Below, in pieces: positions 4,720 through 64,000 of a stretch of DNA of 64,000 nt; the first letter of the stretch is position 1, and each line of letters begins with the position of its first letter. The position numbers and the translations under genes were made by a program. The notes under the pieces are model-generated. The model saw only the letters and a list, made by a program, of their open reading frames with translations, was not told the DNA's origin and made no database searches. The stretch is from contig NC_045146.1 in the NCBI RefSeq assembly GCF_008831285.2, forward strand, positions 6,274,972 through 6,338,971. The letters are read 5' to 3'. This DNA is from Nymphaea colorata. Its lineage: Eukaryota > Streptophyta > Magnoliopsida > Nymphaeales > Nymphaeaceae.

Positions 4720-4726
4720 TTAGGGG

Positions 4727-4806
4727 GCGTTTGATACGCCGGAAATATACTGTAGCAATGGAAAAAAAATTTTAATCTTAAAAATTTTTCCGGTTTATCA
4801 AACGCG
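4727..4806. repeat. Second, inward copy of the TIR at the left end (80-bp foldback)
   Basis: The terminal GCGTTTGATACGCCGGAAA is answered 80 bases in by an inverted match, whose reverse strand reads GCGTTTGATAAACCGGAAAA. The left end can therefore fold on itself. It may be a remnant of a nested tiny copy or a doubled end. Confidence 0.6.
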
Positions 4807-4860
4807 GAAAAAAAAATCGATCGTTACGGTCGATTTTAGAAATTTTTTTCTGGAAAAAAA

Positions 4861-4882
4861 TTTCCACCCGGAGGGGTGGAAA
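4861..4882. repeat. Perfect short hairpin inside the element
   Basis: Arms TTTCCACCC (4,861-4,869) and GGGTGGAAA (4,874-4,882) surround a 4-base loop, and the pairing extends into the A/T runs outside. Related AAATTTTTTTCC words also cluster near the right end at 6,338-6,375. Confidence 0.6.
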
Positions 4883-5098
4883 TTTTCAGGAAAATTTTTT
4901 TGCCCGTTAGGGCACTCTCGCTTCCTCTCGCCCGCGTCTTCCTCTCGCCCGCTCCCTGCAGCCTCCTCTTCCTCTCGCAGATTTTTGGTTTTTTCTCGCT
5001 CTCTCCAGCTGCTCTCTCGCTCTCCCCTTCTTCAAGTTTCGGCGTCTTTCTCCTTTCTTCCCTCGTCCCCTTCCTCCGAGAGAGACAGAAGAGAGAGG

Positions 5099-5153
5099 AT
5101 GAAGATCTTCGTCAAGACCCTTAACAGGAATGACAATCACGTTGGAGGTGGAA
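5099..5153 (+). pseudogene. Captured start of a ubiquitin coding sequence, frameshifted
   Basis: ATG at 5,099 opens MKIFVKTL. After one extra base at about 5,123 the next frame continues TGMTITLEVE. Together these cover the first 18 residues of ubiquitin, with Q2 read as K, K11 read as M, and a +1 frameshift after L8. Similarity stops after E18, where sequence unrelated to ubiquitin follows. About 200 bases upstream are CT-rich with GAGAGAGA just before the ATG, resembling the 5' leader of a plant ubiquitin gene. It sits inside the TIR element at 4,723-6,397, so it is best read as a gene piece picked up by that element. It cannot make ubiquitin. A ubiquitin-like relative such as RUB is possible, but TITLEVE is shared by these. 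Confidence 0.75.
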
Positions 5154-5949
5154 GAGAGAGATAGGGAGACTGCGGCTTGTGGATGATGCGAAGAGTTGGT
5201 CGCTTCCTTCAATTCCCCGCAGAGTCCAGCTTTTCATTTCGTAGAGTCTCTTCTTCCTATTCCTCCTCTTCCTCTTGCGGTGCCAACCAGTGGATAAAGG
5301 ATACTTGCTCTCAGAGACCACCACATCGCCAGCAAAAATTGAAGTATCTCTGTGATCGTTCTCCTCTCTCTGGGGTTGTCGATTTTCTGCTAACCGTGTC
5401 CCATCAATGAAGGATACACCCATGAGGTTTGTGATAGCGGAGCTGTTCCTTCAATGTGGTGAAAGAGATGGGAGCGGCAGATGAATGCCAGAAGGTGATC
5501 CTTTTAATTTATCTGTCCTTTTACCATTCCTCCTCTGATAATCCTGAGAACTGGGTAGTTATCATTTATTTGCTTTCCTCTGGAGGTTTTCTATTGAATT
5601 GGCATTACGTGTTATGAGCAAGCAGAATTGGGTTATCGGAAATTGGTTATTGGGTTTTCCTTTTTTGTCCAAATTGGGCATTGTTATGCATTTTGAAAGC
5701 ATCTCTAATGGCTGCATTATAATAGATCGGAAAATTTTCAACCAACTGCTGACCTGCTCTGTTCCATATGTCTATCGATTCGTGGATAATACGAACGTTG
5801 CGGATTGGTTGATCATGTCTATTCTAGCTCCGGCTTTCAGCATTTGGAATTGGTTGATTTTGAAATGGTTAATGGACGCATAAATACTTTTCTCGAACTT
5901 GTTCCCGGAGTTTAAACAGTCGCCTGTTTTAAAAGAGATGTAATCCTTT

Positions 5950-6105
5950 GTGGAGGAAGAAAGAAGGGGAAAGGGAAGAAAGGAGAAAGAGGAAGAAGGG
6001 ATGAAAGGGGAAAGAGGAAGAAAGAAGGGAAAAGGGAAGAAAGGGGAAAGAGGAAGAAAGAAGGGGAAAGGGAAGAAAGGGGAAAGAGGAAGAAAGAAGG
6101 AAAGG
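5950..6105. repeat. GA-rich tandem repeat, unit about 36 bp
   Basis: About three to four imperfect copies of a purine-only unit built from GGGGAAAGAGGAAGAAAG and AAGGGAAGAAA. The long frames on both strands here (Lys/Glu/Gly-rich or Phe/Pro/Ser-rich) come from the repeat and are not taken as genes. A second small repeat of CGTCCTCTTCCTCT words follows at 6,140-6,215. Confidence 0.7.
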
Positions 6106-6400
6106 GCTTCGTCCTCACCCAGCACCTCACGCCCAGCACAGTCGTCCTCTTCCTCTCCTCAGGCACACAATCGTCCTCTTCCTCTACTCAAGCACAGAAC
6201 CATCATCGTCTTCCTCTTCCTTCTTTTCCAATTTTTTTTCATCAAACAAAGAAATTTTTTTCCAGAAAAATAATTCCTATGTAACAAACAGAATGTGGTT
6301 TTGGACAATTGGAATTTTATTTCCTATTCATCATTTCCAGAAATTTTTTTCCGGAAATTTTTTTCCATTTCCAAATTTCCTGCCATCAAACGGCCCCTTA

Positions 6401-15712: not shown

Positions 15713-16142
15713 GAGGTCGTTTGATTGCTGTCCATCGGGACAGGACATCCTGTCCATTACACTACTATCCTGTCTTCATGGACAATGATGTTTTTTGTCC
15801 ACCGTTTGATGATTTTAGGAACAAAACACTACGTTCTTCTTGTCTGGCGTTTGTTTCATGTGTGTCTGTTCTGTCTGTTCTGTTCGTCCTGTCTGACGTT
15901 TGTTTATCTATCCGTGTTGTCCGATGTTTGTGTCTTTCATGGTTAGTTCTATCTGGTGTTTGTTTATGTTCTGTTCGAACTGTTTGTTTATTCTGGTGTT
16001 CGAACAAACCACAACTGCATGTCTGCAGCTTTCTTGAGGGCAACTTCTATGGGGTGGCGAATCGTAGACTAAAAACATCTAGCATTTTTTTCCAAGAAAT
16101 ACTTCACAAATATGAGAGTTGACTGACTATTATGCACTTCTC

Positions 16143-16174
<32 letters not shown>

Positions 16175-16188
16175 GCGTGTGTGTGTGT

Positions 16189-16224
<36 letters not shown>

Positions 16225-16882
16225 ACAAGTTAGTTGTTGAAACAATAAGAAATTTTACCATGAAATAGGATGAAAAAAAGTCAATCGACTGCAGCTGTTA
16301 TATCAACAATGCTCAAACAACTAGGACATATATCCTCCAGCTTGCAGACCTTACTGAGTTGTATGTGCCAACTATTCAAACAGCCAAAACATAAGACCCA
16401 AAACAGCTTGTTTTTTCATTAATGAGGAAAGTTGACAAGCAAGCTAAAGCCAGTTTGCCATGTTCAACTGGAAGTGGTGCATTTAAGATTTTGGTAGTAG
16501 TGTTTTCTGACAATATCAAGGAGATGTATGAATAGTATATTATTCAATATTTGAAACCCTCCTTTTCTACAGAATGCCCTTGTCTACAAAGATCAATCTT
16601 TATAAATTTCAATGTTCGGCCATCCTTGTTCAGCCTACGACTTCACAAACATGGCTAGGAGTTTGATTTCATCATCTTGCAGCCTAGCTCCGAATGTACA
16701 CTGACCTCTTGATGTGCATTTCTCACCAAATCCCTCCAATGAAAAGCAACAGCCTTACTTAAATATCACACCCTAGAGAGAGAGAAATCTATAGAAGCAA
16801 ACAGTCAGTATAGTCACCAGCATTCTTCCCTTTCCATAGTATGTGATTTCATATATGCTCTCTTCAGTCGACAAACGACCTC
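15713..16882. mobile_element. PIF/Harbinger-like TIR element inside LINE ORF1 (1,170 bp)
   Basis: Left end GAGGTCGTTTG and reversed right end GAGGTCGTTTG are identical over 11 bases. TAA flanks both sides (15,710-15,712 and 16,883-16,885). Removing the element and one TAA rejoins the LINE ORF1 frame without a stop (DTL from one side, KVLIRV from the other), which supports the boundaries. The first 300 bases are clearly the same family as the left end of the larger element at 40,155: both have TTGCTGTCC, GGGACAGGACA, CACCGTTTGATGATTTTAGG and runs of CTGTC/CTGTT words. The right part differs. No transposase is visible. Confidence 0.75.
16143..16225. repeat. (GT)n followed by (GA)n microsatellite
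   Basis: A GTGTGT run with a few GC interruptions passes directly into a GAGAGA run. It lies inside the TIR element at 15,713-16,882. Confidence 0.9.
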
Positions 16883-39292: not shown

Positions 39293-39965
39293 AGATGGCC
39301 TGTTGTCAACCATGAATTGCACATGAAACATAAAGAGCATCTCCAAAACACATTTAAGATGTCTAAACAGATGATTGTGTGCCAAATCACATCTAAAAAT
39401 CACAAATACAGTTAAATGAGGTGGTTCAACCTCAAAGACATGTAGAGCTATGAATTACCTTATTTGAGTTTGTTCTAAATCATTGCAGAGTTTTTGAGGT
39501 TTTCCAGCATTCAGGGGTAAAATGGTCAATTGCCATGATGGCAACAACTCAAGCATTTCAGGTTTAGATCCCTGGTTCATGATTGATGTTCTTAGAGTCA
39601 TGTTCTAATAAATTGCCTCAATTATTGAAATTCTGAAGCTAGCTTGAAATCTCATTACCAAGGCCGAAATGGTCACATCAATATGTAAGAAATTTGATTT
39701 GTCTACACCCTAACAATACCTAGTTGGAGATGTTTTTGTTGCAATGTTGAAAGCATTATTCCTAGACACACTTGCTCTCATGTACATTTGTGCCACTAAA
39801 AGATCTTTAGTTGCAAATATCAGCTACAATGGCCTATTGACAACCATGAATTGCACATGAAACATAAAGAACATCTCCAAAACACATTTAAGATGTCTAA
39901 ACAGATGATTGTGTGCCAAATCACATCTAAAAATCACAAATATAGTTTAAATGAGGTGGTTCAAG
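39293..39965. repeat. Partial tandem duplication, about 136-bp copies 540 bp apart
   Basis: A segment starting ATGGCCT and passing ACATGAAACATAAAGA, CACATTTAAGATGTCTAAAC and AATGAGGTGGTTCAA occurs at about 39,293-39,430 and about 39,830-39,965. A third copy lies at about 57,130-57,262 in the other large repeat. The first copy ends exactly where the roughly 390-bp module begins (GGTTCAA then CCTCAAAGACATG), which marks a recombination join. Confidence 0.8.
39430..39830 (+). repeat. 390-bp module, first of four copies
   Basis: Starts CCTCAAAGACATGTAGAG and ends GCCACTAAAAGATCTTTAGT. Relatives in the same orientation stand at about 48,880-49,285, 56,729-57,125 and 61,462-61,825. The 39,430 and 56,729 copies match each other best, as do the 48,880 and 61,462 copies, so the module was already doubled within the repeat before the 7.1 kb duplication. 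Confidence 0.75.
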
Positions 39966-41015
39966 CTAAACATTTTATAGGTACTATTAATATGGAACAT
40001 AACATAACATACATGAGTATTCATCTAGATGACCCAGCCAAAAAATCCCATCTATAGCAAAAGAGAAAGAAAACAAAATGCATTTTTCCTACTTGTTATG
40101 AAAACAAAATATGGTAGGACTTGGATTTTGAATTTAACTTATGATGCACATTAAGAGGGCGTTTCATTGCTGTCCACTGGGACAGGACAGACAGGACGTC
40201 CTGTCCATTACACCACTGTCCTGTCCTCATGGACAATGGTGTTCCTTGTCCACCGTTTGATGATTTTAGGAACAGAACACTCCCTTCTTTTTGTCCGGCG
40301 TTTGTTACACATATGTCTGTTCTGTCTATTCTGTCTGTCCTGTCTGATGTTTGTTTCTGTCCTCTTCGATCTATCCGTTCTGTCCAGTGTTTGTGTCTTC
40401 CATGATTAGTTCTGTCTGCTCTATCTGTCCTGTCTGGTGTTTGTGTCCTCCATAATCTTAAGACATTTGTAATCAATGCGCTAACGTAGTTTCACCCATG
40501 AAAAGAAACTAGTTAAGGTCATTCTTTTGTTCCTTTAAATACTTTAATTACATAGGAAACTGACATCACATGCTTTAATTCTAACATTATTTATGCTGCT
40601 CAATACCGGAACCCCAGACCCAGTTTTGCAATTAATGCATACAAGCCAGAAACGTTACCGAACACCCATAGATAAGCCTCATGTCTAATATGCCAACGTA
40701 CAGTTGAATTTCAAGCTTTGAGAACTGTGAAAATACATGAAATAGTAACATCAAGAAACAAACCAATGGTAACCAGCATACAAGCAAAACAAAAGCACCT
40801 TAAAAAATGAAACAGATTTAATTCTAATCTGTTATTAATCAATTTTGTTAATTCATTCCATCATTTTTCTTATGTACAATGAAGCGAGGTGAATCAACAA
40901 CTCCAAAGCAAAAAAAAATTCAGAGCCACCCATTCAACTCAAATCATCCTTTATCATCAAAGGACCTATAGTAAAGAATTGGATAACCCCCCACCACCCT
41001 TCTCAACTTCCATCA

Positions 41016-41226
41016 CTATCCCAACTTCAATGAACTGGTAGCAACAGCAGCTTCAGCTAAAGCTGAAGACTCGCTGCTGTCTATCTCATCCTTGGAAGCA
41101 CCAATAGCACTATAACTACAATCTTTCATTGCTTTTGACTTGGCTCTGAAGTCGTCCAGGAAGCGAAACTCTTCTTTGAGCAACTTTTCGAGCTCGGGAT
41201 GCAACTTCAGAGGTCTCATGTCCTTT
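41016..41226 (-). pseudogene. Terminal-exon-like fragment in the TIR element, unknown gene
   Basis: A minus-strand frame follows a good splice acceptor (TTTCTGTAG) at 41,227-41,235. It encodes RPLKLHPELEKLLKEEFRFL, then DDFRAKSKAMKDC, and ends at a stop after ATSSLKLG. The charged, helix-like composition and acceptor suggest a real last exon picked up with its intron. I do not recognise the protein. It may belong with the exon at 43,892-44,029 on the same strand. Confidence 0.45.
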
Positions 41227-41538
41227 CTACAGAAATGATATGCCATGAAATTTCCAATCCATAACTAAAAATAAACAAAAGAAAGAACTGTGGTCAATTC
41301 CAGAATAAATAATCACTAACAAAATAGATTGAGGTATAAGTTCTTAAATGGTATCAGAATCTGTGACTAATCAGAATTGTTGGCAAAGTCGAAGAGAAAA
41401 GTTTAATAATGTTGACCAGAGAAATATGTCAATGAAGAGAGAAACCATCAACATACCTATAAAACTTGAAAAAGCACTCTACTCCATAATTATAATTAGC
41501 ACATCTGCACAAATTTTCAAGAGATTCCTTGACTCGCT

Positions 41539-41543
<5 letters not shown>

Positions 41544-41592
<49 letters not shown>
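41544..41592. repeat. (CT)n microsatellite
   Basis: About 24 CT units, inside the TIR element at 40,155-44,828. Confidence 0.95.
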
Positions 41593-41596
<4 letters not shown>

Positions 41597-41880
41597 CTCT
41601 CTCCAGCACAGGTGGACACAATGTCACCATTCTTAAACTTCTAGGTAGATGGTTTCACAAACATACAACTACCTACCACTTCTCAAATACATTAACACAT
41701 TGGAAGAAATAAACTACAATGCTAACCAATTTCTGAAATAGATTCATATAGCCGTTTATAAGCAATCAAACATCTCCTGTGCAATCAGGACATTAAATGG
41801 CTCTAATAAAGTTAAAGTGTTCACAGTAAGTGCTACTTTACAACTAGCACAACTAAGAATAAGACTAATGCTACTTTACA

Positions 41881-42385
41881 GATGGATTTACAAAGTTGCA
41901 TAGATGGAAGAGTTTCCACTGAATTGGACTCACGATGGTGCAAGCCTCTATCGATAGTTAATAATAGGGAGGAATCAGTTGTTGTAAACAGTGCAGTTCT
42001 GCCAGCAAATTGTCACTTTGATTCTGTTGAGGCATCCAAGAAGGTGCTTCAGTACAATTTAGATGAGAAACTTGGAAATTATAATGAGAGTTCAGTGAAG
42101 CACTTCTCTGGTTCTATGATTTCCTTGGATAGTCTCCCAAATGTTAGACGTTCTGAACCTACAATGAATGGAAGAGTTTCTACTGAATTAGACTCACAGC
42201 AGTGCAAGCCTATACCCAAATTAAATAACGAAGGTGCTACTGAATTAGACTCACCTTGATTCTGTTGAGGTATCTAAGAAGGTGCTTTGGTGCAATTTAG
42301 ATGAGAAACTTGGAGGTTATGATGAGAGTTCAGCAAAACACTTTTCTTGTTCTACAATTTCTTATATTGTCTCCAAGAGAGAGTG
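41881..42385 (+). pseudogene. Coding-like fragment with an internal 260-bp tandem duplication
   Basis: After an acceptor-like CTACTTTACAG, a 125-codon frame holds GRVSTELDSRWCKPLS and, 85 residues later, GRVSTELDSQQCKPIP. The second unit then breaks by deletion and frameshift: HFDSVEASKKVL in the first unit is matched by a frameshifted DSVEVSKKVL after 42,259. The DNA copies are about 41,905-42,160 and 42,160-42,380. It is oriented opposite to the other exon-like pieces in this TIR element. No family is recognised. Confidence 0.5.
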
Positions 42386-43891
42386 CAAGGGGGAAGAGGA
42401 CGTGTCAATTAGATTAGGCATCAGACATACCCTTACTAGTAATAGGAACAAAAGGTGATCTACAAGGCAATTTACATTTATACATGACCTGATATAACTT
42501 GAATAATACAAATGCCCAGACATACCCATTTATCGGCCAGTGATTCTGTCCCTCAAATCAGCCTTTTTAGACTTGGGCTTGATGCCTGTTAGAGCATCCA
42601 TGTTCGTCCTTAAGGTAATTGCAATGAAACAGAAGCATTTGGGGATGCTACCAACATCTCGCAAAGCCCCAAGAGTGGTTGAACAGCAGCTAAGGTTGAC
42701 TAATCAGTGAACTGCTGCCTACCATCCCTGACATGGCTTTCATTCATCTTCAAAGGGCCATTTCATGTCTTGACAATGAACAACACTTGCAACTATAAAA
42801 TCCTTATGATCTCTAGGCATGGGATAATCGAGAGTAATCCTTTAACCTATTTCTGATTATCTAACATAGGGAGAGGAGAGGACAATTATTACTATTAACT
42901 ACATGGATTCACTGTTTCAGAGACTAAATTGTCCAATTCATTTCCTTGGCAATAGTTGGTAATATATAGTAACATTTAAAGCTGAATATTTACCCCAGTG
43001 ATTCTGTCAACAAAATGCAAGAGAAATATTGTACTTCTAAAGAAATAATAATTTAAAACAACCACAAAATGAGACTTATAAAGCAGTAGACAGAACTTAG
43101 ATCATTAAGAAAACAGATCTAACCACCTACTTGACGAATCATGCGATTACTTAAGGAAGCCATACACGGGCCAAAACACGTGCAAGGAAGGCTTTTTAAA
43201 CTACTTAAACTTCATCAAGTTCTTCTTAAACGTGTATTATAATAAACTAAATCAAGGCATTAATCGCAAATACAGTATGGCAAAACCACAGAATCCCTAG
43301 TGGCCTAAAAAGTATCTTCAGAATGTATTTCCTCTAATGAAAAAAAAAAGCATGTGAAATTTTCTAGGCAACCATTCAACTGCAAAAGAAAATCATGAAC
43401 TGAGGACTAAATTTGTCTCTTGATTACCAAGCTGATTTTGCACTGAACCTTAAAGCACTAAAAAACTGTATTGTTTGATCGAGGATTTCCATTGACATCA
43501 CCCCAAGTTCAGCTCCTGTTAGCCTCACAAAATTATCAGCCAGAAAAATGTGTTGCCGCCTCTTTGAACCTCAACGACCTCAACCAGATCAATACCCCAA
43601 ACACTCAACCGGGAGCTCTGTCACTTTTATTGACTTGCACTAGTTCAACTAACACAAACATCCAGTTCTTTTCTGCAGGATTACAGCTCTATTTCCATAA
43701 CTTTGAGATTAGTCACATCTCGAACAGTTCCCAAACAATTCAACCCATTCGCGGACCAACAAAAAAAAATTAACTAAGAATAACCAACAGAAGAAATTAC
43801 AGTATATATTTGTTTTTCATTCAAATAAGACAACGGTGATGCTGATGATGAAGGGTAGATAAACATGCATCAGTTAAACGAGAATTTTGAC

Positions 43892-44029
43892 CTGGCGGAT
43901 CCAAGAGGTCAAGAGTTGCGGTTCCAGCGAGGGAGGGCTGACTGCTGCCCGCTTCTTGCTTCTTTCCAGAGAAGAATCGTCATCTGAATCCTCTGACAAT
44001 GACCCATACGAGGCCCTCAATGCTTCCAT
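43892..44029 (-). pseudogene. First-exon-like fragment with frameshift, USB1-like N-terminus (tentative)
   Basis: ATG at 44,029 opens MEALRASYGSLSEDSDDDSS. Near the exon end a different frame reads LDLLDPP up to a donor at 43,891 (CAG/GTCAAA). Openings of the type MEALRASY...(D/S)n...L.LLDPP are what I recall for plant USB1 (U6 snRNA 3' phosphodiesterase), but short acidic N-termini like this occur in other nuclear proteins too. The two parts lie in different frames, so the copy is broken. A GC-rich stretch upstream (44,340-44,670) resembles a plant 5' leader and promoter. Confidence 0.4.
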
Positions 44030-44339
44030 ACTTCGTCTTCTTCCCCCCTTTGTGGCGCTTCTACTTTCTGTCCTGCCAGTTGTTTGAGTTGCAAGCAAAA
44101 ATGAGATAGCGAGAGAGAGAGGTGCCTTGCTCTGGCAGTCACTGGAATGACCCAAGTCCACACTCCAGGGCTCGTACTCGTCAGTTGCAGAGGATCCCTT
44201 TCTCTCCTTCATCCTTCTTCCAACTGAAGAGGCCAATGAATCGCAAAGACCAATGGGGGCAGATAACTCCCTCAATGACTCCGTTCAGCAGAGCAAGAAG
44301 CAAAGGAGTGATATTTTTCAGTAGACGAAACAAAAGAGT

Positions 44340-44680
44340 CCGGCGGTCGCCCTCCCGCGGAGATGGAGGAGAAGAAAAATGGAAAGGGCTAGGGCAGGTC
44401 GGGCGACAGAGGAGAAGGAGAGAAACAGGAAGAGCTAGGGCAGCTCGGGGCGGAGGCGAGGGTGGAGATGGAGGAGAAAGGCAGCGGAGACGGGGGCGAG
44501 ATGGAGAAGAAGGAGAAGGAGAAGGAGAAAAAAAATGGAGTCGGGGGCTAGGGGTCGGGGTTGGGGAAGCTCGTGGTCGTTGGGGGCGGGAGAGTTCTGA
44601 AAATGGAGTTGGGGGCTCGGGGTCGGGGAAGCTCGGGGTCGTCGAGGGCGGGAGTTCTGTCTGTTCCGAGGGTTAGCTCG
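44340..44680. other. GC-rich, purine-rich zone (possible captured leader/promoter)
   Basis: GGAGAAGGAGAA and GGTCGGGG words repeat, including GGGGCTAGGGGTCGGGG and GGGGCTCGGGGTCGGGG near 44,541-44,627. The Arg/Gly/Glu-rich 184-codon plus-strand frame over it is judged a composition artefact. It differs sharply from the AT-rich flanks, as expected of captured gene-start DNA. Confidence 0.45.
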
Positions 44681-46495
44681 GAACGGAATGAAACAAAAAA
44701 TGAATTTATACTACTGTCCACTTGTCCGTTGTGTCCAGCTTGTTTTATGGACGGCGTTTGATGAAGATTTTGCTTAGACAGGACACGCCTGACTTGTTTC
44801 ACCTGTCCTGTGGCCATCAAACGACCTCTAAATGGACATAGAATACAGAAAAAATTGAGAAAATTGAGGTGAATACCATAAATTTATGAAAAAAAAATTC
44901 TCCCATGACAACTAAAACATATCTAGATAAAAGCAAGAATTGGATGTTGAAATCATATTTTCTCTCCAAAAGAGAAAACAGTGAACATGATTTAGATGCG
45001 TACTTTGGGTCTTCTGAAAGCCTACCTAACAAGGTTAGATCAGCTTAAAATTTGGGTTGAAAACTATTCGTACAGCAAAAAAATATCTGTGTGTTAGAAT
45101 GGAAAAAACATCCAAGAGGATGGTTTACTACTAGTTGGTTTACAGCAGTCATATCTAGCAACATGTTTTGCTATAGGAGGAACCCTATCAAATAACATTG
45201 GTTTGACTTAAAATTTGGTAGTTAGACTTTTGGATATCAGATAAATGATTCTAATTGATAAATTTTGAAAAGATGATCTAGATTGAAAACTACAACTCCA
45301 TGAACCTAGTGTGGAAAAATAGTTATTGCAGAAAACACATTGGTAACATGACTAAACGGCCAGCTTTGGATTATACTTAGCTACCAAAAAAGATCGGATG
45401 GACTTAAAATCTGTGGCTAGACGCTTAGTATAAAAAATAAGAGACCTTGGGTAAAATAATAGACAAATTATGGCTGGAACAATAACTATAGTATGACAAA
45501 CTTAGGATAAAAACCAGTTCAGCTGAAAAATACAAAAAACTATTAGCAGAAAATGAATTTCAAATAATCAATTCAACGACCAAACAAAACACCTTAGGTT
45601 AAGCTGAAAATTGGTGTGCAATAACAATGCAGCTGTAGCAACCAAGTGGCTTTTATGAAATGAAAAAACAATTTGTAGAACTTGACTTATTGACTTCCCA
45701 AATTGATGAAATATTGAAATCAAAGTTTTAGAACCAGTGAATTACCAAAAACAATCTCCCAGAAATCATCCAAACAGGGGAACCAAAATACAAATTCTCA
45801 TGAAACTTGGTATAGAATAAAGTAGATACATGTGAGAACCTGACCGCTTTTACATTTCATCAAGATGACTCATACATTAAGAGAAATTGGTTTCCAAAGT
45901 TAGGTGAAAATTTGTATTATTCAAAAAACAGATTTTTACCTTAACTAAAGAACATATGCTCCGAAAATATGGAAAAATATTGAAGGCTCAATCTAAAAAA
46001 GGGTAAACTTCTAAACCCTTGAATAAAAAACATGATGCATAAAGTGGTTATATGAATCAAGTTAATCATATAGTCGACATAACTTGGAGATCCTTTGAAA
46101 ATATTATATCGGATGCAATGCAATGGGAGAAACAAAATAGATCGATGTTGAAAAATAGGGGGCTACATCCATAGAGGCAGTCTCAACATCTTAATGGCCT
46201 TAACGTTAGAAACATGAAACACTTAAAAAACAAGCATGAAGATGAATAAAACCATGCATTGTGAGCCATGAGAGGGAGAAAATTTCTATGAAGGCAGTGC
46301 CCCAACTAACTACCGAAACCATTACCAAAGCAAAAGGTTAAACAAATGATGAAAAAAAATAAAACAAGGGGCTTCAAATATGAAGTAAGTTTTGACTTCC
46401 TATTAATGGCCTTGGAAAATAATTAAAACAAAACAAAGAGGCCTCTATGGAGTGTTTCAAGGCATGCAAAATGTAGAGAGAGGTGGAGAGAAAAT

Positions 46496-46498
<3 letters not shown>

Positions 46499-46534
<36 letters not shown>
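46499..46534. repeat. (GA)n microsatellite, expanded against its paralogue
   Basis: About 18 GA units here. The same place in the other large repeat (about 59,239-59,254) has only about 7. Confidence 0.9.
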
Positions 46535-46535
<1 letters not shown>

Positions 46536-46779
46536 ATACCTTTTGAACATGGGCCTGTCCTTTTTCTTCTTTATTATTTCTTCTTCCCCTTTTCGCCTCC
46601 TGCTGGACAGCTAAAATTGGTAATCATAAGGGGTGGCAGCTCTTCATTGCAATCTCCTAAGACCTAGAAAGTTGATGAAGTAAAAAATCAACTAAGAATA
46701 AGAAGACTAGAAAACGAGGCTGAGACATACCGAGAAAACTAACCATGTCAAATAATAATGAGTCCTACGTCTGGCCCCT

Positions 46780-46990
46780 ATTTATGATATTGTACAATGA
46801 CACTTTCGAAATAAAGAGGTGGGAGGTGTTACCCCTTTCCTTTCCTATTCATTCAGCACATTTGACTAAGTCAGATAATGATCAGTCCTTCTTCATATAA
46901 CCCCTATTTATAATATTGTACCATGGCACTTGTGAGATAACAGGGGGGGGGGGGGGTTTACCCCATTCCTTTCCCTCTTGATTCATCACA
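46780..46990. repeat. Imperfect tandem pair in copy 1, period about 123 bp
   Basis: CCCCTATTTATGATATTGTA at about 46,777 is followed about 123 bases later by CCCCTATTTATAATATTGTA, each followed by CACTT, a G-rich run, then TACCCC and TTCCTTTCC. Copy 2 keeps only one such unit in full (59,512 onward) and a remnant of the other. Confidence 0.65.
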
Positions 46991-49258
46991 TTTTGTAAAG
47001 TATCAACCTTAATTTAATGGTTAGAATTGATTTTGTGACACATGAGGATCTTGTTGATTTGTATTTTAATTCTAGATTCATATACAGATTTGGATTATGA
47101 TATGAATTTAAAAAGAAATTTGGATAAAAAATTCAAATATAATATTGAATTGGAAATCCATATTAAGATATGTGGACACCCACAAAATTTTTATTATCAA
47201 AATGATCATTTTGCCCATTTAATGGAAATTTTGTGTTGATTTTCTCATGTTTTTTCAAATGCAAATGCCAAAGATAATACAGACACAGATTTTATAATCC
47301 AAACGTTGGGCAGCTCGACATAGCTCACCTAGCTTGCTGCCAATCAGAAAAGTGGCCATTTTGGCCCGATCACCACTCATTTTGCCCTATATTTTGTCCA
47401 CTTTTTATGAAATAACTATGGAATTCTTTTCAAATTATGCTTGACCAATCTAATTTAAAAAATACTCATATTTGCATACCACCATGAGCTTCCACAAACC
47501 ATTTTTAGCTCACATTTGGTCAAATTTGGCTCAAAATGATCATTTTTGAAGTTCTTTGACAATTAACTCACACTAAATATCTATTCATCTCTTCAACTTC
47601 AACTTCAAATCTTTCTTAGTATCAAGAAACTATTTTAAGTGATACCCCCAATTTCAAAATCCAAATTTCTGCTATAAACCATCCATTCCCCTCTTTTTCA
47701 AATATAACGAGCTCATTTTGTCAGTGATTTGCACAATTATTGGCAATGGCATCGTGCCAATCTCAATAGAGCTCACATGAAATCTTTTTCGTTCCAGTAC
47801 GGTATTTTCAAAGTTACTTTCCACTCACTCAACCTAGTTTGAGCTTTAGAGAGTTTTCCTAACATCAAGGTCACTCCTCTTTCTCCATTTTTGAGTGTTT
47901 TAGCTGAAATTCTCTTAATTTGTGGCTGGCCATCATGTGCTAATCTAGCAACCAACATATTTTTAAATTTTAGAACTAACTATCTTTAGCTCAGTTCAAG
48001 TTAATTCATCCTAAGTCAAGCTCATTTTCCAGTTCCTCTCATTTCTCCAACATGTCTCAATTCAAACTCAAACTTCTGAGCCAAAATTTGCACAATCCAG
48101 GACTTAGAGCTTCAATTGAATATTATCATCTTCAGTTTGGAGTGATCACATCCAGATCACATAATTTTTACCTCTAAACCGCTCTATCTTGTCCAAATTC
48201 AAACATTGTTGCTTGTAGCTTTAAAGCTAAATTCTTGTCAATCCAATATTCTGATTTCAAATCTAAGCACACTGATAGATTCAAAGTCACTAAAAAAGAA
48301 TATCAATGTGATTCATTTATCACAAACATGGCTGAAATACCTATTATTCACTTTATCCATCACATTTTCGTTTGTCGGATAAATTTCAGGTTGTTCAATT
48401 TTGAAAAATCAAATTCCCCAAGGTCAATGGGACACGCCTATGAATAACCCTAACCCACATTCAAGTGTAGTTAGACTGCCCAATCAGCCTCACAGAGTGC
48501 AGTTTTGCACCTAGGGGCAAAATTGTTTTTTGTACATGCATGCATTATTATAATAGTTCTTAAGTTAGGGGCCACATGAACTTAAATTTGAACCTAGTTT
48601 AGGTCAAAACTTAAATGAGGTCAACTCAATTTGACCTCAGCATAGTCTGGACCTATGTCCAACCTAGCCAGATACAAGACATGACCACGTAAACAACCCA
48701 AGCTCTAAACTTGAACTCACTAAGCCTAGACTGAGCCTAGGTCGTATGCCGGGATCTCAGACCCTGATCTTTGAACGCAAAACCTACAATATGGACTCGT
48801 AATAGGCATTATTTTGGACCTAGATTCTACATTTCGTATCCAAAACTATGTTTCTCAACTAGATCATGAGTTGGTGAGCTAATTTTAACTTCCCTCAAAG
48901 ACTTGTAGACTTAAGAATTACCTTATTTTAGTTTGTTCTAAATCTTTACGAAGGTTTTTTGAGATTTTCTGACTTCAGCGCCAAAATGGTTATTTGACAT
49001 GATGGCAACAACTTAAGTGTTTTGATTTTATGTCTCTAGTTCATGAGTGATGTTCATTGAGTCCCATTCTGATAAATGGCCCCAGCTATTGAAAATTCCA
49101 CTTTTAAAACTAATTTGAAATCTCATCGTGAAGGCAAAATGGTCATTTTGATATGTGAGAAATTTGGGTTATCTACACTCCTCAAATACCCACTTTGAGG
49201 TGTTTTTATTGAATTATCAAAGCATTATTTTCACATACTTTCTCTCGTACGCATTTGT

Positions 49259-49840
49259 GCCACTAAAAGATCTTTAGTTGCAAATATCAGCTGCAATCGT
49301 TTGTTAATAATGGCATGTTATGTGTGCCACCAATTGACATTTAGTAGTACACTTAATTTATCGTAGAATATCAATAATGTACACTTAATTTGCCACTAAA
49401 ATATATTTAGTGGAAATTTTGTCTCATCATCAAAATGACATTGTAATGTATGTGACTAAATGTCCTTTAACAAACACATGAAGTATAACATAAACTATCA
49501 ACAATGACATAATAGACGTGTCCTGACACTTTTCAGTGGCTTTCATTTTTTGTGACAACAGACCATTTAGGGTTGCTTTTTCTCTACTATGGTAAACGTA
49601 TTATGGGATTTTAGAAGCAATTCCTAAAGGACATTTCAGTGATTTGATCCAGCAACTACAAAAAATATTCCATTTCCAGCGCTCCTAAAAAATCCTAGTG
49701 AAACATTGTCTTGGCTGCACATGGTGTGCATCTATGGCATACACAAATAATGCCTATTAAAGAATCATTGGCTCTAATTTCAGCGGCATTTTTTGTAGCA
49801 CTCTATTTGCCACTAAATTTCTTTAGATCCCCAGGATGAG
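49259..49840. repeat. Array of GCCAC/GTGGC palindromes (TTTAGTGGC words)
   Basis: Inverted words such as GCCACTAAAAGATCTTTAGT, GCCACTAAAATATATTTAGT and GCCACTAAATTTCTTTAG recur over 600 bases. The same array is at about 61,799-62,370 in the other copy, where one unit is more perfect (CCACTTAAATATATTTAGTGG). Short repeats of this kind in both orientations near an end recall subterminal regions of CACTA or Mutator-type transposons, but no CACTA terminus was found. Confidence 0.45.
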
Positions 49841-51267
49841 TAGAATTGAAGATTAATATTTTTTTATGAGTGTCACATGTTTGTAGATGAATTTTTTGAT
49901 GGAAAATATTGAAAAAATTTATACAGTGACGCAAGTACCGTATTCAAAATTTATATCTTAAATTGGGAGTGTAGTATTAAACCGAAAGAGTCATCATTAC
50001 CAAACAATGAAAGAATCCTTTTCCAATAAAGGATTATTTTGTTATAAAAAAGTTTCAAAAATTTGGTCAAAGTACTGGCTAGACCCATATGACATTTAAA
50101 GTGACAAAAGATTTTATAATTTAAGACAAGAAATATGTCTCATTTTTTTGGGCTTAATATAACATCCTTAAACTAAAAAATAAGTTGGTCAAGATCAAGA
50201 AAAAGTTAACGGTGGTGTGGAAATATCAAATACGGTTATGAACATTATGGAATCATATGAATAGGCATTTACCAATACAAGTTATTTGTTACCAAAAATT
50301 AGGTTGTTTTGATTTCCCATGGAAAACAAGATGTTGACTTGAAACATTTTGCCAAGTTGTGAACTTCTATTTTTAAAATTGATTTGCTTCAGCATGTTTC
50401 CTCTTTTTTGCTCCATGTGGTGATGAGAGATTTATTTTAAACAAGGTAATTTATCTTTATTTTTATTATTTACGAGATAAATTGACCATATATAGACAGA
50501 CTAGTAAGAGATATTCTACTTCATGACATGGAGTTATCATCCATCAATTTGGGTAGCCACGGAGACTAGAAAGAAAATAGTCACCACTCACAATATGGAT
50601 TTTATAATTTTATCATCTTCAAATTTTGCTTTTCAAGTATTTCCAAGTTACAACATTTTCTTAATAGAGTAAAATCCTATGAAGCAATTTTTGCATTGTT
50701 AAGGAGGGAAAAATCTTGCTAAGCTTTGCCTTCTTAGATAATCAAATTTGGCATTACTTGAAATTAGTCATAAAAGATTTGTAAAACAAATTTGAAAAGA
50801 TGGTATTACTAAAGATAGCAAATGTTCTCTATTCAAAAAAAGGAAAAAGAGATTTATATTAACCCCCCCTTTTCCCAAAATCTTATTTGTCCACCTGCCA
50901 AATTAATCTTTCCTGAAAATGTCTTATAGTATGAACTATAAATTGCCCATTGCTTCAGTTTGATGACCATCCAAAGCAGTTTTCACTTTCACCATACATT
51001 CTAGAATGCCAAAAACATGTATGAGTTCCCCAACTTAGTCTATGCCTCTCTTCATGTGTGTTGTTGTCACCTTGTTTAGTCATAGTCCATTGACAAGGTA
51101 GAAATCAAAACTCTCCAAAAATACTACCTCAAGAATCCTCCTATGAAGACCATCATGATATGTAACTTCCTCTACATTGATCCTCTCTATTCCAATGTAT
51201 TGTTTCTGATTCAGCAGCTGGCTCAAACCCAAAGTATCAAAAGCTAGTATAAGGTTTGAAATTTTTA

Positions 51268-52000
51268 TCAATGATTTGCTTAATTAAAGATATATAATGA
51301 GATGAAGAATCTACACTTTTAAATCCATACGTCACATTAGCAAGACACAAACATATCCTCTACAATTACAGAACAAAAGTATAGTGCAGCCAAAGTTGCT
51401 AATCATTTTAATCACGCAAATTTATTTATTGGGGAAAATTTCACTTTTGTTAAGAATTTGAATCATTACAAATTAGATTCAAGTAAAAATTGTAGGTAAA
51501 ACAAAAAAGATCCACTGTAATGCCCTAATTTTGCCTTCGTAAATGATGTATGACTCAACCTGCTATATCGGGGAAATAATATAAGGGCCTGTTGGCATAA
51601 CTTTAGTGATCTACTTGAAAAATCCAATAAAGTCGGCAATAGAACTAGAGGATAGCATCTATTAATGCATGACCTGATATTTCCCAACCAGGACTCCTTA
51701 TGGAAACGTCAGGACTCATTGCAATGAAATGCTCTGATCCATACCAAAAAGGTCAGGACTCATTACTATTCAGACAATCTAGAACAAATTGAAGAACAAG
51801 GAATCCTAAAACTAATGTTTGTCTTGAACAAGGTAACCCAACTAAATGCCACCAAAGAAATTCATTATTCCCACCTATATACATCCTAAAGACAACAACA
51901 AGAAATAAGAATCTACTCATGTAGCCATGTGGAGCTTATTTATATAACTTATGGAGTTTTTTTGATGATTTAGTTTTCTTGAAGATCAAGATGGAGCATA
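51268..52000. repeat. Direct repeat D, copy 1 (partner at 53,883-54,930)
   Basis: From AAAGATATATAATGAGATGAA through TTTTGTTAAGAATTTGAATC to the left arm of the foldback element, this follows the same order as 53,905-54,930 with many differences and indels. It begins where the large repeat ends (51,262). Confidence 0.65.
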
Positions 52001-52315
52001 CGTAAGTGCCATTCACATGGAACCTTTCCCATTATCCAAAGGAATTCAGCTACCACTTAGGATCGACTAAGCCATGTGAATGACATATACATCTGCTCCA
52101 TCTTGGTCTTCAGGATAAGTAAATCATGAGAGGATTTCCATTAGTTATGTAAATAAGCTAGACCAAGTGATATGAGTAGGTTCTTCTACGTTGTAGCCGT
52201 TGTCTTGAGAATTCACATAGGTGGGAATAATGAATTTCTTTTGTGGCACTTAGTTGGGTTTCCTTATTTAAATCAAACTTGCGCATTCAGTTTCCTTCTT
52301 TTTCAATTTGTCCTA
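51781..52315. mobile_element. Foldback element with arms of about 240 bp
   Basis: The left arm (about 51,781-52,020) reads CAACTAAATGCCACCAAAGA, ATTCATTATTCCCACCTAT, GAAGATCAAGATGGAGCA. The right arm (about 52,072-52,315), reversed, reads CAACTAAGTGCCACAAAAGA, ATTCATTATTCCCACCTAT, GAAGACCAAGATGGAGCA. The arms meet at CATTCACATGG / CCATGTGAATG around a loop of about 50 bases. No coding capacity is seen. A transcript across it would fold into a long hairpin. Confidence 0.8.
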
Positions 52316-56728: not shown

Positions 56729-59700
56729 ACCTCAAAGACATGTAGAGTTATGAATTACCTTGTTTGAGTTGGTTCTAAACCATTGCAGAGTTTTTGAGGT
56801 TTTCTAATATTTAGGGGCAAAATAGTCAATTGACATGATGGCAGCAACTCAGGCATTTCAGGTTTACATCCCTAGGTTCATGATTGATGTTCTTAGAGTC
56901 TTGTTCTGATAAATTGCCTCAACTATTGAAATTCTGAAGTTAGTTTGAAATCTCATTGTGAAGGCTGAAATGGCCACATTGATATGTAAGAAATTTGATT
57001 TGTCTACGCCCCAACAACACCTAGTTGGAGATGTTTTTATTTGCAATGTTGAAAGGTGTTATTCCCATACACGCTCGCACTCATGTACATTTGTGCCACT
57101 AAAAGATCTTTAGTTGCAAACATCAAGTACAATGACCTATTGTCAACCACGAATTGAACATGAAACATAAAGAACATCTCCAAAACACATTTAAGATGTC
57201 TAAACAGATGATTTTATGCCAAATCACATCTAAAAATCACAAATATAGTTAAATGAGGTGGTTCAAGCTAAAAATTTTATAGGTACTATTAAAATGGAAC
57301 ATAACACAACATACATGAGTGTTCATCTAGATGACCCATTCAAAAATACCATCTACAGCATTAGAGAAAGAAAACAAAATGCATTTTCCCTACTTGTGAT
57401 GAAAACAAAAGATGATAGGACTAGGATTTTGAAAATAACTTATGATGCACATGAAATGGACATAGAATACTAGAAAAATGGAGGTGAATATCATAAATTC
57501 ATGGAAAACAAAATTCTCCCATGACAACTGAAACATATCTAGATAAAAGGAAGAGTTGGATTCTGAATCGAGAGGTTGAAATCTTATTTTCTCTCAAAAG
57601 AGAAAACAATGAATATGGTTTGGATGCAGATTTGGGTCTTCTTAAAGCCTACCTAACAAGGTTAGATCAGCCTAAAATTTGGGTTGAAAACTATTTGTAC
57701 AGCAAAAAGAATGCCTATGTGTTAGAATAGAAAAACCATCTCAGAGGATGACATAACACAACCACAAATCCATGACAGGAAACATGTTTTAGTGCTAACT
57801 GGTTTACAACTTTTGCTCTAGGAGGAACCCTATCAAATAACATTGGTTTGACGTAAAATTTGGTAGTTAGACTTTTGGATATCAGAAAAATGATTCTAAT
57901 TGATAAATTTTGAAAAGATGATCTAGATTGAAAACTACAGCTTCATGAATCTAGTGTGGAAAAATAGTTATTGCAGAAAACACATTGGTAACATGACTAA
58001 ACAACCAGCTTTGGATTATACCTAGCTACCTAAAAGGATCGGGTTGGACTTAAAATCCATGGGAAGACGCTTAGTATAAAAAATAAGAGACCTTAGGTAA
58101 AATAATAGACAAATTATGGCTGGGTCAAGAACTATTGTCTGACAAACTTAGGATACACACCAGTTTAGCTGAAAAAAAAAACAAAAAACTATTAGCAGAA
58201 AATGAATTTCAATTAATCAATTCAATGACCAAACAAAACACCTTTGGTTAAGCTGAAAAATGAAGTGTAATAACTGGACACCTGCAGCAACCAAGTGGCT
58301 TTTATGAAATGAAAAAACAATTTGTAGTACTTGACTTATTGAGTTCCCAAATTGATGAAATATTGAAATCAAAGTTTTAGGACATTGAATTACCATAAAC
58401 AATTTCCCAGAAATCATCAAAACAGGGGAACCAAAATACAAATTCTCATGAAACTAGGTATAGAGTAAGCTAGATAGAATAAACTAGATACATGGAGAAC
58501 CTGACCGCTTTTACATTTCATCAAAACGACTCATACATTAAAAGAAATTGGTTTCCAAAGTTAGGTGAAAATTTGTATTTTTCATAAAACAGATTTTTAC
58601 CTTAACTAAAGAATATATGTCCCCAAAATATGGGAACCTATTGAAGGCTGAAGATAAAAAAGGTAAACATCTAAACCCTTGAATAAAAAACACGACGCAG
58701 GTATGCCATGAAGAATAAAAAATAACATAAGCATAACTTCTAAGAAAGCAAACATGAATTCATAAAGTGGTTATATGAATCAAGTTAATCATATAGTCGA
58801 CATAACTTGGAGATCCTTTGAAAATAATATATCGGACGCAATGCAATGTGAGAAACAAAATAGATCCATGTTGAAAAAGTGGGGGCTACGTCCATAGAAG
58901 CAGTCTAAAAATCTCAAAAGCCTTAATGTTAGAAACATGAAACACTTAAAAAAACAAGCATGAAGATGAATTAAACCATGCATTGTGAGCCATTAGAGGG
59001 AGAAAATTTCTATGAAGGCAGCGCCCCAACTAACTACCGAAACCATTACCAAAGCAAAAGGTTAAACAAATGATGAAAAAAATTAAAAAACAATTTGTCA
59101 ACTTTGAGAAGGAGCTTCATATATGAAGGAAGATTTGACTTCCTATTGATTGCCTGGGAAAATAAGTAAAACAAAACAAAGAGGCCTCCATGGAGTGTTC
59201 CATGGGGTGCAACATGTAGAGAGAGATGGAGAGAAAATGACAGAGAGAGAGAGAGCATACCTTTTGGATATGGGCCTGTCCTTTTTCTTCTTTATTCTTT
59301 CTTCTTCCCCTTTTTGCCTCCTACTAGACAGCCAAAATTGATAATCATAAGCGGTGGCTGCTCTTCATTGCAATCTCCTAAAACCTAGAAAATTGATGAA
59401 GTGAAGAATCAACTAAGAAAGAATAAGAAGACTAATAAAGGGGTGGGAGGTGTTACCCCTTACCTTTCCTATTCATTCAACACAATTGACTGTCGGATCC
59501 TTGTACATATAACCCCTATTTATAATATTGTACCATGGCACTTTTGAAATAAAAAGTGGGGGGGGGGGGGGGGTTACCCCATTCCTTTCCCTCTTGATTC
59601 ATCACATTTTGTAAAGTATCAACCCTAGTTTAATGGTTAGAATTGATTTTGTGACACATGAGGATCTTGTTGATTTGGATTTTAATTCTAGATTCATTGG

Positions 59701-62700
59701 CAAATTTGGATTATCATATGAATTTAAAAAGAGATTTGGACTGAAAATCCAAATATAATATTGAATTGGAAATCCATATTAAGATATGTGGACAGCCAAA
59801 ATTTTTTATTACCAAAATGACCATTCTGCCCATTTAATGCAGATTTTGTGTTGATTTTCTCAAGTTTTTTTCAAATACAAATGCTAAAGAACATACAGGC
59901 ACAGATTTTATAATCCAAATATTGGGCAGCTAGACTCAGCTCACCTAGCTTGCTGCCATTCAGAAGAATGACCATTTTGGCCCGATCACCACTTATTTTT
60001 CCCTATATATGTTGTCCATCTTTTATGAAATAACTATGGAATTATGGAGAATTATGCTTTACCAATATAATTATAAAAATACTCATTTTTGCGTACCACC
60101 ACGGGCTTCCAAAAACCATTCTTAGCTCACGTTTGGTTTAAGTTTGGCTCAAATGACCATTTTATATGTTTTTAACAATTCATTCGCACTAAATATCGAT
60201 TGATCTCTTCAATTTCAACTTCAAATCTTTTTTAGTATCAACAAACTACTTTAGGTGATACTCCCAATTTCAAAATCCAAATTTCTGCTATAAACCATCT
60301 ATTTCCCTCTTTTTCAACTAAAATGAGCTCATTTAGTCAGTGATTTGCATAATTATCGCCAATGGCATCTTGCGAGTCTCCATAGAGATCACATTAAAGT
60401 CTTTTTGGTGCTGGGACAGCATTTTTAAAGTTACTTTCCACTCACTCAACCTAATTTGAGCTCTAGAGAGTTTTCAGGACATCAAGGTCACTCCATTTTC
60501 TCCATTTTGAGTGTTTTAGCTGAAATTCTCTTAATATGTGGCTGGCCATCATCTGCCAAGTTAGCAACATATTTTAAATGTTAGAACTAACTATGTTTGC
60601 CTCAGTTCAAGTTAATTCATTCTCAGTCAAGCTCATTTTCTAGTTCTTCTCATTTCTCCAATATGTCTCAATTCAAACTCAACTTCTGAGCCAAAATTTG
60701 CACAATCCAAGACTTAGAGCTTCAATTGAATATTATCTTCTTTAGTTTGGAGTGATCACATCCAGATCACAAAATTTTTACCTCTAAACCGCTCTATCTT
60801 GTACAAATTCAAACATTGTCACTTGTAGTTTTAGAGCTTACTTCTTGTCAATCCAAGATTCTGATTTCAAATCTAAGCACACTGATAGATTCAAAGTCAC
60901 TCAAAAAGAATATCAATATGATTCATTTGTCACAAACATGGCTGAAATCTCTATTTTTCTTTTTATCCATCACATTTTCATTTATAAAATCAATTTCAGC
61001 TTGTTCAAGTTTGAAAAGTCTAATTCCACAAGGTCAAACTTGGGACACGCCTACGAATAAGCTTAACCAACATCCAAGTGTAGCCAGACTGCCCCTCACA
61101 GAGTGCAGTTTTGCACCCAAGGGCAAAATTATTATTTGTACATGCACACATTATTTTAATATTTCTGAAGTTAGAAGCCACATGAACTTAAATTTGAACC
61201 TAGTTAAATTTGACCTAAGCATAGTTTGGACCTTTGTCCAACCTAGCCAGATATAGAACATGACCACGTAAACAACCCAAGCACTAAACTTGAACTCACT
61301 ATGCCTAGACGGAGCCTAGGTCCTATGCCGGGATCTCAGAACCTGATCTTTGAACCCAAAATCTACAATACTCGTAATAGGCTTTATTTTGGACCTAGAT
61401 TCTACATTTGGTATCCAAAACTACATGTCTCAACTACATCATGAGTTGATGAGCTGATTTTAACTTCCCTCAGAGACTTGTAGATTTAAGAATTACCTTA
61501 TTTTGATTGTTCTAAATCTTTACAAAGGTTTCATGAGATTTTTTGACATTCAGTGTCAAAATGGTTATTTGACATGATGGCAACAAATTAACTGTTTCAG
61601 TTTTAGGTGCCTAGTTCTTGAGTGATGTCTATTGAAAATTCCACTTTTTAAACTAGTTTGAAATCTCATCGTGAAGGCAAAATGGTCATTTTGATATGTG
61701 AGAAAGTTGGGTTATCTACACTACTCCAATACCCAGTTTGAGGTTTTTTTATTGCATTATCGAAGCATTATTTTCACACACTTTCTCTTGTATGCATTTG
61801 TGCCACTAAAAGATCTTTAGTTTCAAATATTGGCTGCAGTCGATTGTTAATAATGGCATGTTATGTGTGCCACCAGTTGACATTTAGTAGTACACTTAAT
61901 TTATCATAGAATATCAGTAAAGGCCATGAAAACTTTTGCCACTTAAATATATTTAGTGGCACATTTGTCTCATCATCAAAATGATGATGAATTGTATGTG
62001 ACTAAGCGTCCTTTGACAGACATATGAAGTATGACATAAACTATCAACAATGACATAATAGACATGTCCTGACACTTTTCAGTGGCTTTTATTTTTTGCG
62101 ACAAAAGACGATTTGGGGTCGCTTTTTATCTACTATGATAAACCTATTATGGGATTTTAGAAGCACGGCTAAAGACATTTCAGTGACTTGATCCAGCAAC
62201 TAAAAAAAATATTCCATTTCCAGCGCAACTAAAAAATTCCAGTGGCACAATCTCTTGGCCGTACATGGTGTGCATCTATGCCATATACAAATTATGCCTC
62301 TTAAGGAATCATTGGCTCTAGTTTTATCGGCATTTTTTGTGGCACTCTATTTGCTACAAAATTCTTTAGTGCCCCAGGATGAGTAGAATTGAAGATTAAT
62401 ATTTTTTTTATGAGTGTCACATGTTTGTAGATAAAATTTTTGATGGAAAATATTGAAAAAATTGCTACACTGACGCAAGTCACGTATTCAAAAATTTGAT
62501 CTTAAATTGGGAGTGTAGCATTAAACCAAAAGAGTCATAATTACCTAACAATGAAAGAATCATTTTCCAATGAAGGATTATTTCGTTATAAAAAAGTTTC
62601 AAAAATTTGGTCAAAGTAGTGACCAGACCTATATGAGATTTAAAGGGACAAAAGATTTTATAATCAAGACAAGAAATATGTCTCATTTTTTTGGGGTTAA

Positions 62701-63803
62701 TATAACATCCTTACACAAAAAAGTAAGTTGGTCAAGATCAAGAAAAAGTTAACGGTGGTGTGGAAGTATCAAATACGGTTATGAACATTATGGAATCATA
62801 TGAATAGGCATTTACCAATACAAGTTATTTGTTACCAAAAATTAGGTTGTTTTGATTTCCCATGGAAAACAAGATGTTGACTTGAAACATTTTGCCAAGT
62901 TGTGAACTTCTCTTTTTCCAAATTGATTTGCTTCAGCGTGTTTCCTCTTTTTTGCTCCATGTGGTGATGAGAGATTTATTTTAAACAAGGTAATTTATCT
63001 TTATTTTTATTATTTACGAGATAAATTGACCATATATAGACAGACTAGTAAGAGATATTCTACTTCATGACATGGAGTTATCATCCTACAATTTGGGTAG
63101 CCACCGAGACTAGAAAGAAAACAGTCACCGCTCACAATATGGATTTTATAATTTTATCATCTTCAAATTTTGCTTTTCAAGTATTTCAAAGTTACAAAAT
63201 TTTCTTAATAGAGTAAAATCCTATGAAGCAATTTTTGCATTGTTAAGGAGGGAAAAATCTTGCTAAGCTTTGCCTTCTTAGATAATCAAATTTGGCATTA
63301 ATTGAAATTAGTCATAAAAGATTTGTAAAACAAATTTGAAAAGATGGTATTACTAAAGATAGCAAATGTTCCCTATTCAAAAAAAGGAAAAAGAGATTTA
63401 TATTAACCCCCCCTTTTCCCAAAATCTTATTTGTCCACCTACCAAATTAATCTTTCCTGAAAATGTCTTATAGTATGAAGTATAAGTTGCCCATTGCTTC
63501 AGTTTGATGACCATCCAAAGCAGTTTTCAATTTCTCCATACATTCTAGAATGCCAAAAACATATATGAGTTCCACAACTTAGTCTATGCCTCTCTTCATA
63601 TGTGTTGTTGTCACCGTGTTTAGTCATAGTCCATTGACATGGTAGAAAGCAAAACTCTCCAAAAATATTACCTCAAGAATCCTCCTATGAAGACCATCAT
63701 GATATGCCTCTACATTGATCCTCTCTATTTCTATGTATTGTTTCTGATTCACAGCTGTCTCAAACCCAAAGTATCAAAAGCTAGTAGAAGGCTTGAAATT
63801 TTC
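56729..63803 (+). repeat. Large direct repeat, copy 2 (uninterrupted, 7.1 kb)
   Basis: Direct-orientation partner of 39,430-51,262, without the TIR element. Shared order: 390-bp module, ACATGAAACATAAAG block, the GAGAGA and G-run sites (about 59,239 and 59,560), second module at 61,462, palindrome array, and an AT-rich end. Similarity stops at about 63,803 (GGCTTGAAATTTTCAT here, GGTTTGAAATTTTTAT in copy 1). The final 2 kb looks most alike. No coding signal is visible in either copy. Confidence 0.85.
57443..57463. other. Unoccupied insertion site matching the 40,155-44,828 element
   Basis: This copy reads GATGCACAT-GAA-ATGGACAT. The other copy reads GATGCACAT-TAA, the element, then TAA-ATGGACAT. 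The single difference (G for T at 57,453) is ordinary divergence. It shows the state before insertion. Confidence 0.85.
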
Positions 63804-64000
63804 ATTATTTAATATTCTTTTAATTTTGAAATATTTGTAATTGTTCTTAAGTTGAATGTGAAAAATAAAAGTATGGCCGGATTTGTATGATTTAAAAAAT
63901 GGTCATTTTACTTAGTACCAAGATATGTGTCAAAGCCACATTGACTAGACCGTGTCATTATTTCTTTCTATTGCAACTATTTGTATTATTCCAAACAATG
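63804..64000. other. Window end, no recognised feature
   Basis: AT-rich sequence beyond the end of the large repeat. Nothing is recognised. Confidence 0.4.

Follow-up and report, generated by a model that had tools for sequence, protein, structure and literature searches.

The 64,000-nucleotide stretch of Nymphaea colorata contig NC_045146.1 analysed here (positions 6,274,972 to 6,338,971, hereafter the window) is AT-rich (35.9% GC) and contains no N. It holds two direct copies, A and B, of a segment of ~7.1 kb, and three elements with the ends of PIF/Harbinger-type plant transposons, designated E1, E2 and E3 (Table). E1 (40,155-44,828; 4,674 bp) interrupts copy A and lies between two TAA triplets, while the paralogous site in copy B is empty and carries a single triplet.

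The occupied and empty sites were compared by self-blastn of the window and by MAFFT alignment of the two copies. Self-blastn pairs 39,429-40,151 with 56,729-57,452 at 90.6% identity, and 44,860-51,265 with 57,475-63,802 in four pieces at 84.6-93.0%. The MAFFT alignment of 39,400-51,300 minus E1 against 56,700-63,860, whose input takes in a few dozen unrelated flanking bases, has 6,985 gap-free columns in which the identity of the copies is 90.8%; it contains 335 transitions and 309 transversions, and its gaps number 53. The biggest gap left once E1 is removed is 69 bases, and the 4.68 kb difference is unique in its size class. The comparison confirms what the preliminary description had reported, namely a 4,674 bp piece that lies between TAA duplications in one repeat and is absent from the other; the edges of this sole gap of its class coincide with the terminal inverted repeats (TIRs), and it comes with a 3 bp duplication. 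With 57 bases of copy B kept fixed and the breakpoint shifted through 24 offsets, the number of matches peaked at 52 of 57 at offsets 0 to 3 only and fell off to either side, which is what a 3 bp duplication predicts. A moving 80-base stretch, which crosses an indel, gave 59-64 matches of 80 and no discrimination. The ends are fixed to the base, as had been claimed, except that the duplication leaves 3 bp ambiguous, and together with the alignment and the sliding test they give good support to movement as one mobile unit. As to the duplicated triplet, TAA stands on both sides of E1 as described, and copy B holds GAA rather than TAA.

Both ends of E1 carry the motif G(N)5GTT, with 3 mismatches in 14 bp; compared end to end, the TIRs agree in 9 of the terminal 10 bases, in 11 of 14 and in 13 of 16, after which they diverge (13 of 25). 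The limits applied in mining PIF/Harbinger elements from Medicago allow no more than 4 mismatches over 14 bp and 0 in the target-site duplication, and require G(N)5GTT (PMC2213677). E1 shows both the 3 bp TTA/TAA duplication and a TIR motif and mismatch number of this kind, and is assigned as PIF/Harbinger-like because its TAA duplication, end motif and TIR mismatches fall within these published limits. It belongs to a known plant transposon type, and we found nothing in the window at variance with the plant elements reported in the studies cited here.

Table. Features of the window, in coordinates of the 64,000-nucleotide stretch
Feature	Position	Strand	Basis or remark
E3, 1,675 bp PIF/Harbinger-like element	4723..6397	+	TTA duplication; ubiquitin 5' fragment
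E2, 1,170 bp related element	15713..16882	+	TAA duplication; E1-like left arm
Copy A of ~7.1 kb direct repeat, E1-occupied	39430..51265	+	Self-blastn, MAFFT
Left target-site duplication, TAA	40152..40154	.	Sequence, breakpoint sliding
E1 left TIR	40155..40168	+	Scored over 14 bp; carries G(N)5GTT
E1 left arm	40155..40418	+	Resembles E2 left arm; self-blastn, arm comparison
Inner TIR-like sequence, right-end orientation	40955..40968	-	2 mismatches of 14; first base breaks G(N)5GTT
82-residue open frame	41019..41264	-	Last-exon-like by eye (AG before, stop after)
Low-complexity Pfam-matching frames	41,432-41,623 and 41,482-41,640		Over TC microsatellite
147-residue open frame	41816..42256	+	No Pfam match
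136-residue open frame	43877..44284	-	No Pfam match; first-exon-like by eye (ATG and possible splice donor)
57-residue open frame	44151..44321	+	Di19_C (PF14571) match, Pfam E 0.001
Inner TIR-like sequence, left-end orientation	44750..44763	+	2 mismatches of 14
E1 right TIR	44815..44828	-	G(N)5GTT present
Right target-site duplication, TAA	44829..44831	.	Sequence, breakpoint sliding
Copy B of ~7.1 kb direct repeat, site empty	56729..63802	+	Self-blastn, MAFFT
Empty site in copy B, GAA	57453..57455	.	Single triplet

The window contains three pairs of TIRs, at most 10 kb apart, whose TTA/TAA flanks match; they correspond to E1, E2 and E3. In 200 dinucleotide-shuffled windows, at least one such pair arose in 3 and three pairs in 0, odds that are indicative only because the scan pattern was written once the ends were known. 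The left arms of E1 and E2 match in three pieces, of 35 bases (88.6% identity), 167 bases (88.0%) and 50 bases (86.0%). The pentamer TGTCC occurs 19 times in E1, against ~3 expected by composition across the element, and 11 of these occurrences start within its first 290 bases; subterminal repeats of this kind are often bound by transposase. At 5,099, E3 contains the 5' end of a ubiquitin gene, frameshifted by one base, which agrees at 16 of 18 residues in a frameshift-tolerant count (best of 100 shuffles, 10), and its identity is regarded as settled because of this count. Neither ubiquitin frame has a Pfam match, and phmmer gave none with the first-frame piece; the second-frame piece matched polyubiquitin with small E-values that are sums over repeats, single ubiquitin chains standing at about E 0.4-0.9. 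E3 also includes a tandem array of purine-rich sequence (5,953-6,104).

The coding content of E1 was examined with Pfam frame by frame, covering every frame of 42 residues or more in 40,100-44,900 (50 frames) plus the frame at 40,099-40,491, with thresholds of E <= 10 for 10 frames and E <= 0.5 for 41. None of the 51 frames matches a transposase family, a search that a short or decayed remnant in frames of fewer than 42 residues would escape, and neither the DDE transposase nor the ORF1 (open reading frame 1) product that marks an autonomous PIF/Harbinger element was recognised among them; E1 is classed as a large non-autonomous element because of this lack of transposase. For 49 of the 51 frames there is no match below E 0.001. 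The other two, on a TC microsatellite, gave matches to DUF3915 (best E 1.5e-05) and Apis_Csd/Atrophin-1, which were rejected as low complexity and below the cut-offs. So silent an interior is what would be expected if E1 had arisen by deletion from an autonomous PIF/Harbinger element and were filled with decayed transposon DNA rather than captured host DNA, and frame lengths fit such an origin as well, the longest frame staying within chance in three of the four interior stretches tested (reached in 42, 44 and 22 of 300 shuffles). The stretch in which it goes beyond chance is 41,700-42,500, where the length of the 147-residue frame was reached in 1 of 300 shuffles; this frame includes one copy of an internal direct repeat of E1 (42,013-42,137 and 42,251-42,374, 84% identical). 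The 82-residue frame is of a length reached in 42 of 300 shuffles of 41,000-41,500, and its best hits (Pfam E 0.18, PDB E 0.55) are uninformative, while the 136-residue frame is about equal to the mean longest frame, 131.6, in shuffles of 43,800-44,700. The latter frame may be like the start of plant USB1, a putative likeness that is not relied on; a literature text search with nine of its residues gave no match.

Against an origin by deletion stand the 4.7 kb of sequence without any trace of transposase or ORF1, the ubiquitin gene piece carried by E3 between similar ends, the minus-strand pieces that look exon-like by eye, and the Di19_C match of the 57-residue frame. This match is weak, at 20 bits below the curated cut-off of 29, and 0 of 9 control versions of the frame (one reversed, eight shuffled) match any family at E <= 1. 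Since about 0.05 chance matches at E 0.001 are expected across 51 frames, the match is suggestive, rather than proof, of a captured piece of a host Di19 gene. Derivation by deletion is accordingly considered unlikely, and the interior, which is not recognisable as transposon DNA, is probably host-derived. It need not represent one gene, because the Di19_C frame and the exon-like frames overlap and are oppositely oriented.

How such an interior might have been enclosed is addressed by the Pack-TYPE acquisition model, in which neighbouring insertions fuse (PMC8903248; PMC13317346), and which in the first of these sources includes Pack-PIF elements. E1 contains two inner TIR-like sequences, the first in right-end and the second in left-end orientation, a layout as expected from the model in these accounts. 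At least one inner TIR-like hit appeared in 32 of 1,000 shuffles and at least two in 1, and the right-then-left order in 0. E1 could be the product of two adjacent elements, the left one stopping at 40,968 and the right one starting at 44,750, that fused and later moved as one along with the intervening host DNA. Such a fusion would concern the origin of E1 and is compatible with its being a non-autonomous element moved in trans. However, neither inner end adjoins TTA/TAA, one of them lacks G(N)5GTT, the right-hand element would measure 79 bp, and an equally good TIR-like hit is found at 18,360, away from E1, E2 and E3. In addition, the core CGTTTG is also a subterminal repeat of the E1 left arm, the search pattern was chosen after the fact, and the Di19_C frame and the minus-strand exon-like frames run through each other in opposite directions. 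Fusion is on balance a doubtful origin, and the fuller proposal, that E1 retains a scar of its own making in the form of two fused PIF-like insertions around host DNA including a Di19 piece, with both inner ends still legible, and later relocated as a whole, is more doubtful still.

Taken together, E1 is very probably a non-autonomous PIF/Harbinger-like plant transposon that moved in trans into copy A, with an interior that is probably host DNA. In the mechanism proposed, transposase supplied by another element of the genome would have bound the ends of E1, which would then have moved by cut and paste and inserted at a TAA with duplication of the three bases; the insertion would have been into copy A of an older duplicated segment of ~7.1 kb, most simply after the duplication, and the interior would probably have been picked up from host sequence, perhaps partly from a Di19 gene. 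The ends, the duplication, the empty paralogous site and the lack of a recognised transposase are seen directly in the sequence; the source of the transposase, the order of events, the host origin of the interior and the plant origin of the window are what we infer from it. Several points weigh against this interpretation: the TIRs of E1 are short and imperfect; its right end and that of E2 are alike over 11 bp only; its scanned frames hold no transposase; within the window, neither an autonomous partner nor a second full copy of E1 is seen, and self-blastn finds no second copy of its interior there; the triplet in copy B is GAA, which requires one extra base change in every history; and the Pfam search has the lower length limit given above. 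A plasmid collection gave no match to E1, and viral contigs gave 0 matches to the left-end pattern; plant DNA is expected in neither.

Compared with known systems, E1 shares the TTA/TAA duplication, G(N)5GTT and short imperfect TIRs with non-autonomous PIF/Harbinger elements as characterized in Medicago (PMC2213677), and differs in that transposase and ORF1 are not recognised in this copy. Like the Pack-PIF elements of maize and rice, it has PIF-type ends around non-transposon DNA, with possible inner TIR relics; the maize example cluster averages 402 and 535 bp, against 4,674 bp for E1 (PMC8903248), and the host origin of the E1 interior is drawn from one weak Di19_C match. Grapevine Pifvine-3, with transduplicated sequence, is also comparable, its elements having a long 5' region (up to 3.5 kb) that mostly matches sequence of the host genome, with exons and introns among it; some Pifvine-3 copies have a transposase, whereas none is recognised in E1 (PMC2528002). 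Tourist-like miniature inverted-repeat transposable elements (MITEs) such as mPing have the same kind of target, and precise excision is expected for them, as for E1 (PMC4561436). E1 is far from them in size, at 4,674 bp. MITEs usually measure hundreds of base pairs.

The same excision behaviour bears on the order of events. PIF/Harbinger-type elements such as the Tourist-like mPing generally excise precisely (PMC4561436), and copy B may therefore be a healed excision site rather than one that was never occupied. Insertion first and duplication later, with E1 subsequently lost from copy B by precise excision, agrees with the single triplet and absence of a footprint in copy B. It needs an insertion, an excision and a base change in copy B, one step more than a late insertion. 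Copy B also bears no sign of disturbance beside the site, where the identity in the flanking bins (87.4-92.1%) is similar to that of the remainder of the repeat, although a precise excision would be traceless too. An early insertion is thus quite improbable, and insertion of E1 into copy A after the duplication is clearly favoured, as a matter of judgement, because it involves fewer steps. The preliminary description had taken duplication first and insertion later as proven; this order is plausible only, and the GAA in copy B is not decisive.

Because one repeat copy is occupied and the other is empty, no second genome was needed to delimit this unannotated element. The window also offers a small example of gene-fragment transport, with three PIF-like elements of which one carries a piece of ubiquitin and one perhaps a piece of Di19.

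The duplicated segment has further features of its own. At 50,400-50,899, identity between the two copies rises to 98%, compared with 85-94% in the remaining 15 bins of the repeat, which may reflect constraint or gene conversion. The left edge of copy A carries a ~142 bp sequence (39,295-39,436) that duplicates 39,829-39,970 with 95% identity, and suggests a small later duplication at the breakpoint, because it is closer to its source than A is to B. Two stretches of 400 bp inside copy A (39,430-39,830 and 48,893-49,297) are 78% alike and have counterparts in copy B, and may represent the two ends of an ancient repeat element contained in the segment.

Elsewhere in the window, no tRNA was found. 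The window reads as plant DNA with many transposon remnants, judging by its element types, by the Di19 match and by a few frames that are presumably copia-like and long interspersed nuclear element (LINE)-like, and that gave no Pfam match. When 109 window frames were submitted to Pfam at once, the matches listed, which cover 25 of 27 families, include weak ones outside E1, e.g. 7TM_GPCR_Srt (E 5.1e-04). The minus strand at 36,206-36,460 carries part of a gene for an FSH1-type serine hydrolase (Pfam E 1.7e-05, above the cut-off); the resemblance may reach up to 36,718, but two of the frames concerned, at 36,367-36,639 and 36,464-36,718, have no Pfam match. Between the two copies of the duplicated segment, ~550 bp at 51,772-52,323 match their own reverse complement at 74% in a foldback-like arrangement, and 51,763-52,011 matches 54,655-54,904 at 82%.
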